Source: Streptomyces sp. NBC_00094 (GTDB lineage Bacteria > Actinomycetota > Actinomycetes > Streptomycetales > Streptomycetaceae). From it: a stretch of DNA of 64,000 nt. Below the pieces are notes generated by a model. That model saw only the letters and a list, made by a program, of their open reading frames with translations, ran no database searches and was not told the DNA's origin. The stretch is from NCBI RefSeq assembly GCF_026343125.1, contig NZ_JAPEMB010000001.1:3911501-3975500 (forward strand), written 5' to 3'. Shown piece by piece: positions 3,533 to 63,881 of this stretch. The position numbers were made by a program, and so were the translations under genes. Each line of letters opens with the position of its first letter. Position 1 is the first letter of the stretch.

Positions 3533-4111
3533 ATGACCGACTTCTCGCACAAGCCCACGCTCACCGGTGGCCTGGTGGTCCTCCGCCCCGTCACGGAGGA
3601 CGACGTCCCCGCGCTGCTGCCGCTGTTCGAGGACGCGGAGGTGACCAGGCTGACCGGCTGCCACACGCGCTTCGACGAGCCGGCACTGCGGAAGTGGTAC
3701 GCCTCCCGGGGCGCACAGGACGACCGCCTCGACCTCGCCGTCGTGGAGCGCGCGACGGGCCGGGTCGTCGGCGAGGCCGTCCTCAACGAATGGGACGAGG
3801 ACAACGAGAGCTGTTCCTTCCGCATCGGCTTCGTCCCGGACGCGGTCGGGCGGGGCCTCGGCACGGAGGCGACCCGGCTGATCGTCGGCCACGGCTTCGA
3901 GGCCCTCGGCCTCTACCGCATCCATCTGGAGGTCTACGCCTTCAACCCCCGCGCCCGCCGCGCCTACGAGAAGGCGGGCTTCCGGGCGGAGGGCGTGCTG
4001 CGGGGCGCGCTGCTGTGGGAGGGCGAACGGGTCGACGCGACGGTGATGTCGATCCTGGCGCCGGAGTACCGGGCGGGCCGGACCCGGCGGGAATTGTCGG
4101 ACACCCCCTAG
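3533..4111 (+). CDS. GNAT-family N-acetyltransferase (RimJ/RimL type)
   Basis: A 192-residue acetyltransferase of the GNAT superfamily, which transfers an acetyl group from acetyl-CoA to an amine on a small molecule or protein. The RimJ/RimL-like fold is seen from GLVVLRPVTEDD at the N-terminus, the acetyl-CoA loop region VGRGLGTEATRL near residue 105, and the typical NPRARRAYEKAGFR near residue 142. The substrate is unknown. It starts 42 bp after cbiD. The last 13 residues (RAGRTRRELSDTP) and the TAG stop are encoded by DNA matching the end of the MITE-like element at 63714-63881, so the C-terminus appears to have been supplied by an insertion. Confidence 0.9.
   Translation: MTDFSHKPTLTGGLVVLRPVTEDDVPALLPLFEDAEVTRLTGCHTRFDEPALRKWYASRGAQDDRLDLAVVERATGRVVGEAVLNEWDEDNESCSFRIGFVPDAVGRGLGTEATRLIVGHGFEALGLYRIHLEVYAFNPRARRAYEKAGFRAEGVLRGALLWEGERVDATVMSILAPEYRAGRTRRELSDTP
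4071..4111. repeat. Diverged end of MITE-like element, forming the 3' end of the GNAT gene
   Basis: These 41 bp match 63841-63881, the right end of the complete element near the right edge, at 38 positions; the first 28 bp are identical. Both copies finish in CTAG, and here TAG is the stop codon of the acetyltransferase. No other part of the element is seen next to it, so this is a solitary end. Confidence 0.75.
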
Positions 4112-4136
4112 CGGACCCGCCCGCCGCCCCACCCGC

Positions 4137-4826
4137 TCAGGCGGCCGGGTAGCCGATCTCCCGTACGTCCTCCGCGAGGCCGTCGAGGTCCGTCTCCGGG
4201 TCGAGGGCCGGGTTGAGGGCCGCCACGATCTCCGGGGTCAGGGGGCGCAGGGCGAGGACGTGCCGTACGGCTTCGAGACCGACGGGGCGTTCGTAGTAGT
4301 CCGAGGCCCACTCCGCGTACGCCTCCGCCGAGCGGTCCGTGAGCAGGTGGAGGAGGCGGCCGGAGCCGTCCGGGTCCGGGTGACCGTCGAGGTCCGGGAA
4401 GGCGACCGGTCCCGTCCGCCAGGCCGTGTCCGCGGTCTCCCGCCAGAGGCAGGCGGTGGTCACGTGCACCCCGTCCTCGTCCGTGAACGCGGGCTCCGTC
4501 AGGTACTCCCGGAAGGCCTCCGGGACACCGTCGAGGACCCCGGGCCAGGTCCGGCCGTCCGCGAGCGGCCCGAAGGGGCTCAGCGGCGACTCGTGGTCGA
4601 AGACGCGCGCGTACGCCCCCGCCGGAGAGAGCACGATCGTGTACTCGCCGCCGGAGCCGTCCCGCATCGACGCCAGCTGCTCGGTCTCCGACCAGTGCGC
4701 GTCGAAGGAGTAGTACCGGCCCTCCCAGTCCGGGCTGAGGACGGCGTCCAGCATCGCGAGCCCCCGGGAGTGGTCGCGCAGTTCCTCGATACCCGGCAGC
4801 GCCCGGGCCACGTCGTCAACGGTCAT
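4137..4826 (-). CDS. Conserved hypothetical protein, cytoplasmic
   Basis: I do not recognise a named family. The 229-residue product is acidic and soluble, with no signal peptide or membrane segment. It begins MTVDDVARALPGIEELRDHSRGLAMLDAVLSP and is rich in Trp and Asp (YYSFDAHWSETEQLASMRDGSGGEY), a style seen in Streptomyces SMI1/immunity-like or YwqJ-like hypothetical proteins, but no diagnostic motif supports that. The ATG at 4826 is preferred over a longer GTG/ATG reading to 4907 because the upstream 27 codons look unlike the rest and run into the bL37 promoter area. It is divergent from bL37 and converges on the GNAT gene with 25 bp between stops. Confidence 0.7.
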   Translation of the reverse strand: MTVDDVARALPGIEELRDHSRGLAMLDAVLSPDWEGRYYSFDAHWSETEQLASMRDGSGGEYTIVLSPAGAYARVFDHESPLSPFGPLADGRTWPGVLDGVPEAFREYLTEPAFTDEDGVHVTTACLWRETADTAWRTGPVAFPDLDGHPDPDGSGRLLHLLTDRSAEAYAEWASDYYERPVGLEAVRHVLALRPLTPEIVAALNPALDPETDLDGLAEDVREIGYPAA

Positions 4827-4924
4827 AGGTCCATGACACCGCACGGTGCCGACAGCCGACATGCGGCCCCCCTGCCGCGAATCTACGCTTACCGGGACAT
4901 ACCCCACGAGCGAGAGGGAGTCCC

Positions 4925-7095: not shown

Positions 7096-8330
7096 GCGGA
7101 TCGATCTCCTGGATCTGCTGTTTTCGTTACGGACCACTGCGTGACCGGCATCGCCTGGCGCCAGCCCGTGAACCCGCCCACCGGGACGGCCGCGGCGACG
7201 GCGAGCCGGACGAGTTCGCCGCCGTGCCGGCGGTAGCGGTCGGCGAGCAGCGCCTCGGACTCCAGCGTCACGGTGTTGGCGACGAGCCGGCCGCCGGCCG
7301 GGAGCGCGTCCCAGCAGGCGTCGAGCAGGCCGGGGACGGTGAGCCCGCCGCCGATGAAGACGGCGTCGGGGGTGGGGAGGCCGGTGAGCGCCGCGGGGGC
7401 CGGTCCGGTGACGACGCGCAGGGCGGGGACGCCGAGGGTGTCCGCGTTGCGGGTGATGCGCGCGGCCCTCTCCGGGGACTTCTCCACCGCGATCGCCCGG
7501 CACGCGCGGTGGGTCCGCATCCATTCGATGCCGATGGAGCCGGAGCCGCCGCCGATGTCCCAGAGCAGTTCGCCGGGGGCGGGCGCCAGCGCGGCGAGCG
7601 TGGCGGCGCGGACGTACCGCTTCGTGAGCTGCCCGTCGTGCTCGTACGCCTCGTCGGGCAGTCCGGGCGTGGCACCGAGCCGGAGCGTGCCCGGGTCGCG
7701 TACGCAGTCGAGCGCGAGGACGTGGAGGGCGTCGGTCCGCTCGTACGGCCAGTCCGCGGCGGTGGCGTCGAGGAGCCGTTCGCCGGGGCCGCCCAGCTGT
7801 TCCAGGACCCGGACGCGGGTGGCGCCCCAGCCGGTGCGGCGCAGCAGCGCGGCGACCTCGGCGGAGGTGTCGGGGCCTTCGCCGAGGACGAGGAGCCGGC
7901 GCCCGGGGTGGAGGGCGGCGGAGAGCGCGGCGAGCGGCCTGGCGACGAGGGAGACGGTCTCGACGGCCTCCAGGGGCCAGCCGAGGCGGGCGCAGGCGTA
8001 CGAGACGGAGGACGGGTGCGGGTGGATCCGGAGGCGGTCGGCGCCGACGGCCTCGGCGAGGGTGCGGCCGATCCCGTAGAAGGAGGGGTCCCCGCTGGCG
8101 AGGACGGCGACCGCGCGGCCCTCGTGGGCGGCGAGCAGTCCGGGGACGGCGGGCCGGAGGGGGGAGGGCCAGGCGATCCGCTCGCCGGGGCACTCTCCGG
8201 CGGGGACGAGGTCGAGCTGGCGGGGGGCGCCGATGAGGACCTCGGCGGCGTGCAGCACGCGGCGGGAGCTCTCGGGGAGCCCGTCCCAGCCGTCCGCGCC
8301 GATTCCGACGACCGATATCGCAGCGTTCAC
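7092..8330 (-). CDS. cobL: Precorrin-6Y C5,15-methyltransferase (decarboxylating), CbiE-CbiT fusion
   Basis: CobL methylates C5 and C15 of precorrin-6B/6Y and removes the acetate carboxyl at C12. The 412-residue protein has the expected two parts: an N-terminal tetrapyrrole methylase (CbiE-like, residues about 1-205, opening ISVVGIGADGWDGL) and a C-terminal Rossmann methyltransferase (CbiT-like, residues about 220-400) with the SAM-binding motif DIGGGSGSIGIEW near residue 250. It overlaps cobM by 4 bp and follows a 46-residue membrane-protein gene on the same strand. No cobalamin riboswitch was recognised upstream. Confidence 0.94.
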   Translation of the reverse strand: MNAAISVVGIGADGWDGLPESSRRVLHAAEVLIGAPRQLDLVPAGECPGERIAWPSPLRPAVPGLLAAHEGRAVAVLASGDPSFYGIGRTLAEAVGADRLRIHPHPSSVSYACARLGWPLEAVETVSLVARPLAALSAALHPGRRLLVLGEGPDTSAEVAALLRRTGWGATRVRVLEQLGGPGERLLDATAADWPYERTDALHVLALDCVRDPGTLRLGATPGLPDEAYEHDGQLTKRYVRAATLAALAPAPGELLWDIGGGSGSIGIEWMRTHRACRAIAVEKSPERAARITRNADTLGVPALRVVTGPAPAALTGLPTPDAVFIGGGLTVPGLLDACWDALPAGGRLVANTVTLESEALLADRYRRHGGELVRLAVAAAVPVGGFTGWRQAMPVTQWSVTKTADPGDRSA

Positions 8331-39179: not shown

Positions 39180-39504
39180 CCTGCGAAGACGACTCAGCCA
39201 TCGACCCCCAGAAATGCGGGCTTCGGTGGGGCGGACGGTCTCCCAAAGGACGACCACGGAGAAGGAACCCCAACCAAGCCCCACCCCTCCGCCCCGCTCA
39301 GGCCGGACTCACTCGCTTGAGCAACGAACACCAAATCGGCTGGCTTTGGGGAAGGTCGGATGATCTACCCTCAGCACGACACCACATCACCGCTGGCATG
39401 CGTCGACCTCCGCCGGGACTGCGAATCCCAACGCGAGGGCCTGACCAAGAGGAAGACAACACCTTCCCCATGGATACCCAGAACACTAAGACTTGATCCG
39501 TAAT
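39180..39504. other. Gene-free 325 bp at the downstream end of the TnpB element
   Basis: No gene recognised. GC content is lower than its surroundings. The minus-strand tnpB-like gene ends at 39505, so the segment would hold the element's right end and any omega-RNA-like transcript. I see GC-rich inverted segments around 39210-39310 but no clear hairpin of the IS200/IS605 type. Confidence 0.4.
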
Positions 39505-62889: not shown

Positions 62890-63717
62890 GTGACCGTCCA
62901 TCCCAGCCTCCAGAACTACGCCGACGCCTGGACCCATTCCATCGAGGCGATAGCCGAGCTGGTGCAGCCGCTCGCGGAGGGCGAATGGAACCGGCCGACC
63001 CCGTGCATCGGCTGGTCGGTGCGGGACATCGTCTCCCATGTCATCGGCGTGGAGACGGAGATGCTCGGCGACCCCCGGCCGATCCACTCCCTGCCGCGCG
63101 ATCTGTACCACGTACGCAGTGACTTCGCCCGCTACATGGAGGTCCAGGTCGATGTGCGGCGGCACCACACCGCGCCGGAGATGACCTCCGAGCTGGAGTA
63201 CATCCTCATCCGCCGGGCACGGCAGCTCCGCAACGAGAACCGCTCCCCCGAGCACCTGATCCGCGCCCCCCTCGGCGCCGAGCAGACGCTCGAACTGGCC
63301 TACCGGCTGCGCGCCTTCGACGTGTGGGTACACGAGCAGGACCTGCGGACCGCGCTGGGTGTGCCGGGCAACCTGGACTCGGCCGGTGCGCACGTCACCC
63401 GGGACGTGCTCCTGGCGGCGCTGCCGAAGGTGGTCGCCAAGGACGCCGGGGCGCCCCCGTCCTCGGCGGTGGTGCTCGACGTGACCGGTCCGGTGGAGTT
63501 CCTGCGGACGGTACGGGTCGACGCGGAGGGCCGGGGGACGGTCGACGGAGCGCCCTCGCTGGGCCCCGCGGTGACGATCGCGACGGACTGGGAGACGTTC
63601 GTCCGGCTCGCCTGCGGCCGCGTCCGGCCGGCGGACGTCGCCGACCGGGTCAAGACGGAGGGCGACGCGGAGCTGGCGCGGGCCATCCTCGACAACTTCG
63701 CGGTGACGCCCCGCTAG
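62890..63717 (+). CDS. Maleylpyruvate isomerase-family mycothiol-dependent enzyme
   Basis: A 275-residue protein with the DinB/MDMPI fold: RPTPCIGWSVRDIVSHVIGVETEML near residue 36 (His metal ligand), and RAFDVWVHEQDLRTALG near 145 (His-x-x-x-Asp). These enzymes use mycothiol as cofactor or nucleophile. The TAG stop is part of the CTAG end of the MITE-like element that follows, so the native stop may have been replaced. GTG start. Confidence 0.9.
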   Translation: MTVHPSLQNYADAWTHSIEAIAELVQPLAEGEWNRPTPCIGWSVRDIVSHVIGVETEMLGDPRPIHSLPRDLYHVRSDFARYMEVQVDVRRHHTAPEMTSELEYILIRRARQLRNENRSPEHLIRAPLGAEQTLELAYRLRAFDVWVHEQDLRTALGVPGNLDSAGAHVTRDVLLAALPKVVAKDAGAPPSSAVVLDVTGPVEFLRTVRVDAEGRGTVDGAPSLGPAVTIATDWETFVRLACGRVRPADVADRVKTEGDAELARAILDNFAVTPR

Positions 63718-63881
63718 GGCCTGTCTGACAATTCGCGTCGGATCAGGCCGGGTCGTTCGGTGCGTGCGGTCGGCGTGCGGTCGGGACGTCCTCGTAGCGG
63801 GCTACGTGGGCGTTTCGGCCGTGCGTCGAGCGTGCGTGCCGGGCGGGCCGGACCCGGCGGGAATTGTCAGACAGGCCCTAG
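63714..63881. mobile_element. MITE-like element with inverted ends
   Basis: A 168-bp non-coding element with 21-bp perfect terminal inverted repeats whose core is GGGCCTGTCTGACAATTC. Both ends are bounded by CTAG. Imperfect pairing continues inward and the centre forms a hairpin around CGTAGCGGGCTACG, so the whole element can fold on itself. No transposase inside. Confidence 0.82.

Follow-up and report, generated by a model that had tools for sequence, protein, structure and literature searches.

A leftover end of a 168-bp mobile element as the apparent source of the C-terminus of a Streptomyces acetyltransferase

The last 14 residues and the stop codon of a GNAT acetyltransferase gene of Streptomyces sp. 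NBC_00094 appear, on sequence comparison, to be the leftover end of a mobile element. The gene was analysed within a stretch of 64,000 nucleotides (the window), in which it occupies positions 3533 to 4111 on the plus strand as an open reading frame encoding 192 amino acids, with a match to the Pfam family Acetyltransf_3 at residues 16-151 (E 1.5e-22). Positions 4071-4111 and 63841-63881, the latter being the element's right end, shared 38 of 41 bases (mismatches at 4099, 4104 and 4105), as the sequence-only reading had reported. The next-ranked matches on both strands of the window were the inverted left end of the element itself (63714; 31/41) and a site at 8246 (27/41). Chance or composition was rejected as the source of the similarity, the best unrelated match reaching 27/41.

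The similarity starts further to the left, at about 4066, and the segment 4066-4111 (plus strand), which is absent from orthologues, agreed with several copies in the same genome at 42 of 46 bases. Positions 4067-4108 form 14 element-like codons, YRAGRTRRELSDTP, followed by TAG, and this TAG, the GNAT stop codon, belongs to the terminal CTAG of the element end (4108-4111). The reading GTACCGGGCGGG of the GNAT gene recurs exactly in L024, a copy in this genome, so that the 14 codons and the stop (4067-4111) are element-derived. The window copy has GACACCCCC, 10 other aligned copies have GACAGGCCC, and the GACACCCCCTAG form is present at one end of a full element in another genome (G118:C1:482365-482543). 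The earlier proposal that the right end of a '63.7-kb element' had donated the last 13 codons of the gene thus stood as to donation, end and location. The tail was found to comprise 14 codons, the element at 63.7 kb is itself 168 bp long, and the donor is not an intact insertion but a solo right end that lacks the left part and has no second CTAG on its left side.

The intact element (63714-63881, plus strand) is multicopy, carries 21-bp inverted ends and has CTAG at both ends. The CTAG at its left end contains the TAG stop of a gene on the plus strand (62890-63717; third-position GC 0.97), whose frame is open for 296 codons up to that stop and whose GTG start at 62890 is our reading. The same genome holds 10 copies, the one at 63714-63881 included, that span 166-168 of the 168 bases at an identity of at least 77%, besides one left-truncated copy, one divergent copy (69%) and fragments. 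The element is therefore short and multicopy with terminal inverted repeats, as expected of a MITE, and at 168 bp, with a longest frame of 55 codons across it, it has no transposase of its own. One forward frame is open throughout 63714-63881, which makes a read-through fusion possible in principle. Most copies are flanked by CTAG on both sides, which fits either a target duplication or conserved element ends. When either end is read outward, one frame gives ..RRELSD(R/T)P followed by a stop, and this is the sole frame that stops at the end of the element. An end pattern was found in 39 of 199 and 60 of 392 genomes of the genus (overlapping samples), and the reversed control pattern in 0; the maximum among the 392 genomes was 66 exact end matches (G314), and another genome, G095, was rich in solo ends. 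Matches to the element were present in 7 plasmid records, one of them spanning more than 80% of the element, and in none of the phage records. A search of the whole window against Rfam at the gathering threshold returned a single match, to the Streptomyces sRNA scr4677 (39219-39469, 124.9 bits); as this lies elsewhere, a known structured RNA at the GNAT end or at 63714-63881 was ruled out.

Several variant arrangements were observed. Copies of about 38 bp, hardly more than both ends, occur at L010 2054-2092 and at L012 (G000:C1:4462553 and 1319340, respectively), and a solo right end in the same genome (L011, G000:C1:6787964-6788001, minus strand) starts directly after the TGA of the upstream open reading frame. 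A unit of about 1 kb at L009 (8796 to ~9790; G000:C1:2603295-2604290) is bordered on one side by a left end of this family and on the other by the right end of a different CTAG repeat (L014 type); its interior looks coding, and it is possibly a composite mobile unit. Copies of the 168-bp type are directly abutted, in the flanks of L010, L017, L020 and L021, by another repeat bounded by CTAG, whose ends resemble GGGGTGTCTTG(C/T)CGATCAGGCC.

The GNAT 3' end was compared with 74 related loci (of which L027 and L099 have an early stop in the frame used and L097 and L098 are partial) and with 29 loci from a larger genus sample, many of them from genomes already included. Of these 103 rows, which cover 81 distinct 3' regions and in which genomes recur, 0 had sequence resembling the element at a distance of 400 bp or less from the matched GNAT end. 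The refuting outcome named beforehand, a tail common to the orthologues by descent, was not what the comparison returned, and shared ancestry of the tail among GNATs was ruled out. Close relatives end in a few variable residues. Trp179 is present in all 24 other sequences of a 25-sequence alignment, and the window GNAT has Tyr; correspondingly, GAG is followed by TGG in 28 of the 29 larger-sample rows and by TAC in the window. In several close relatives the GNAT gene closes with TCAGGC..GGGTAG, its stop apparently overlapping the end of the convergent gene. This motif persists in the window at 4137-4152, 3' of the new stop. Read in the old GNAT frame of the orthologues' stop, positions 4108-4152 (plus strand) give LADPPAAPPAQAAG and a stop, an ending that resembles orthologue L058 (..GQAAG and stop). 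Because of this likeness, the native tail probably once continued into 4108-4152, with its last codons surviving as a remnant. The convergent open reading frame (4137-4907, minus strand; 256 amino acids from the longest start) has its stop at 4137-4139, and its last 235 codons had no Pfam match; 25 bases separate this stop from the CTAG at 4108-4111, which is thus not the stop of that neighbour. At two relatives (L092 and L354), the GNAT stop or the bases directly after it fall in the palindrome ATACCCCCTAGGGGTAT, which we presume to resemble a copper-repressor site.

The expectation that the same peptide would close other, unrelated proteins was examined on a sample of ends drawn from 16 stretches of the same genome, 140 from other genomes of the genus and loci L388-L417. 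The sample was non-random, as places were taken from among the matches listed and the last two batches favoured unpaired ends. Genes were called from open frames with a third-position GC of at least 0.88 and a margin of 0.1, so that weaker captures may be missed. Among the matches listed, there were 282 distinct ends, of which 232 finish in CTAG and 50 do not; 59 were solo (no left partner within 400 bp) and 223 partnered, with 6 too near a contig edge to judge. A coding frame runs through the end to its TAG in three cases, those of the window, L165 and L190 (third-position GC of 0.96, 0.96 and 0.99, respectively), all of them solo (3/59 solo against 0/223 partnered ends). Capture of an element end as a C-terminus is therefore uncommon. 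At 25 further ends, a gene reads toward the inner side and stops short of the end. L234 and L430, candidates for read-through in the other two frames, were judged doubtful and not counted as captures, as their translations look non-coding.

The L165 gene (genome G095) encodes a small secreted protein that ends in ..PVLSGNGGPAAGGRELSDRP and a stop (..GGRELSDRP). We take this protein to be rodlin-like; it had no Pfam match. One of its sister copies ends in ..PVLSGNGSVGS and a stop, another lacks a stop there and continues, and the element tail was absent from all of the relatives' rows compared. Upstream of the captured gene (L165, 309-1296) lies a rodlin-like gene without its usual stop, open into the next gene. 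The L190 gene (genome G131) encodes a purine/cytosine-type permease (Transp_cyt_pur, E 4.8e-111) that ends in ..YVALMAGRRRGGREWSDRP and a stop (..GGREWSDRP). Its closest relative ends in ..YVALMARRTP and a stop, and the tail was present in 0 of 21 relatives. At both loci, examination of 300 codons on the opposite strand showed a gene open as far as the same CTAG (third-position GC of 0.97 and 1.00), so that one palindromic CTAG is the stop of two convergent genes. In GNAT, L165 and L190 alike, the element sequence closes a conserved gene in frame and is absent from orthologues, as would be required of a MITE-derived C-terminus. Of 7,738 six-frame stop codons at GNAT loci that had been picked without regard to the element, 0 were followed by the tail peptide pattern; another set gave 4 matches, which were the three captures, one of them present twice. 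The suggested repeated C-terminal capture was thus borne out by two unrelated proteins, in two other genomes, with the same element-encoded peptide, and the same outcome seems, from these sequences, to have arisen independently at least twice elsewhere. The unrelated proteins share a tail because one outward frame of either end reads ..RRELSDRP and a stop.

We consider it likely that an insertion of an IS5-like MITE, followed by a deletion, replaced the GNAT tail, and that such captures recur by way of CTAG stops. A non-autonomous element of this kind would have entered a CTAG close to the gene's 3' end. A later deletion would then have taken the left part of the element together with the last native codons, joining the GNAT frame to the right end in the sole frame that finishes at the terminal CTAG, so that a variable native tail would have given way to 14 element-encoded residues and a stop. 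We infer the insertion to have preceded the deletion; an intact element was found in none of the 81 distinct GNAT 3' regions of relatives examined. The deletion perhaps occurred at a short GC-rich homology: GGGCGGCCGG directly follows GAG T in L058, and GGGCGGGCCGG lies close to the right end of the element, a likeness that makes this a plausible cause. The solo end could instead have arrived as such, by one-ended or aberrant transposition or as a very short derivative with a cryptic left site. Solo ends are indeed common (59/282 among the matches listed), and two-ended derivatives of about 40-80 bp exist, so that short ends seem mobile; the left boundaries of solo ends, however, vary from place to place, and the missing second CTAG on the left in the window likewise speaks against arrival in this form, which we regard as unlikely.

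Insertion followed by deletion leaves the tail as a tolerated accident, presumably neutral. That it was selected for a new function, for example as a stability or interaction signal, might be suggested by the same peptide on three unrelated proteins, but a single frame of the element end already accounts for the common peptide, and each case comes from one genome and so offers no conservation to cite. In an AlphaFold2 model of the GNAT protein (mean pLDDT 76), moreover, residues 182-192 had values below 50, with a low-confidence helix at 177-188, and selection of the tail is accordingly rated as highly improbable. The reverse direction, in which the GNAT gene would be the source of the element's end, can draw on nothing beyond the match itself; it is refuted by the absence of the sequence from GNAT relatives and by its nature as an inverted-repeat arm present in many genomes, and we give it next to no credence.

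The recurrence of captures was related to the position of the element. The tetranucleotide CTAG is rare, frequently provides a TAG stop and, as a palindrome, reads TAG on both strands. Captures probably recur because the element sits at CTAG, often a TAG stop, which places copies at gene ends, and also because either end reads ..RRELSD(R/T)P and a stop outward in one frame. In an initial set of 139 ends with CTAG, the outer side showed a clear coding phase at 87. The TAG was the stop of that gene in 57 of the 87, compared with 21 of 68 background CTAG sites with clear flanks (p = 2.3e-5). Counted per intact element, a CTAG supplied the TAG stop of a gene in 41 of 70 cases, against 21 of 88 background CTAGs (p = 1.6e-5). 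The assumption that the element is frequent near gene ends was thereby upheld for intact copies. The enrichment was computed on ends still having CTAG. Among the 50 ends without it, clear flanks were in stop phase in 4 of 24, compared with 91 of 145-146 for ends that have CTAG. The excess may therefore be due in part to preservation of CTAG at places where it acts as a stop. Such preservation, a choice of target and the survival of insertions that do no harm are all compatible with the enrichment and are inseparable on the present counts. We tentatively suggest, at somewhat less than even odds, that stop codons act as landing sites for a MITE family that targets CTAG. Insertion would keep the stop of the host gene because CTAG is palindromic and gives TAG on both strands, and an eroded single end would give a shared convergent stop and a family-specific C-terminal peptide. 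If true, this would be a target-sequence-based route for changing bacterial protein C-termini, and it would explain why other bacterial MITEs favour 3' ends, a preference described in print as unexplained.

The mobilising family was approached through the termini. CTAG is the commonest target of IS5 elements (15 of 24 listed targets in the portion available of PMC5493358), and this preference is shared by the 168-bp element, of whose distinct ends 232 of 282, among the matches listed, finish in CTAG. In the same genome, elements with a PF13340 gene carry outer termini such as CTAGGGCCTGTTGCG and CTAGGGCCTGTCCGATGGG and share only the outer 11-12 bases with the 168-bp element. No transposase-bearing element with the complete end CTAGGGCCTGTCTGACAATTC was found among 46 PF13340 loci (16 from the same genome and 30 from eight element-rich genomes); the loci examined are thus related to the 168-bp element at their ends but not identical to CTAGGGCCTGTCTGACAATTC. 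We infer an IS5-like transposase family for the element.

MITE-derived bacterial C-termini are already documented, and the GNAT tail is another such case. The three independent cases illustrate the rewriting of protein ends by a short mobile element. The count of CTAG as a stop offers a concrete, testable reason for the build-up of the element at gene ends; for annotators, a Streptomyces protein ending in ..RRELSD(R/T)P and a stop flags an element-derived tail. No published description of the 168-bp element was recognised in the literature searched, and the MITE review PMC10969869 makes no mention of stop codon, C-terminal, CTAG or Streptomyces. Within that literature, the element family, the truncated-end geometry with a convergent shared stop and the CTAG-stop count are new. 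According to the available parts of the respective sources, the enterobacterial RU-1, RU-2 and RU-3 (ERIC-type) MITE-like repeats give in-frame C-terminal ends to conserved proteins, one example being an amidase whose native stop was lost to RU-1 (Delihas 2007, PMC2759123). These repeats differ in family and ends, the Streptomyces donor being a truncated single end with its own terminal CTAG as the stop. The Rickettsia palindromic elements (RPE) are small repeats translated in frame inside protein genes; their insertions preserve the downstream part of the protein, whereas the Streptomyces element replaces the C-terminus (review PMC2229807). In Coxiella, QMITE1 and QMITE2 overlap gene 3' ends, and one protein gains an element-derived C-terminal extension; in the part of the paper available, its authors give the reason for the 3' preference as unknown and offer no explanation by CTAG stop codons (PMC5896051). 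These elements belong to another family than the Streptomyces element.
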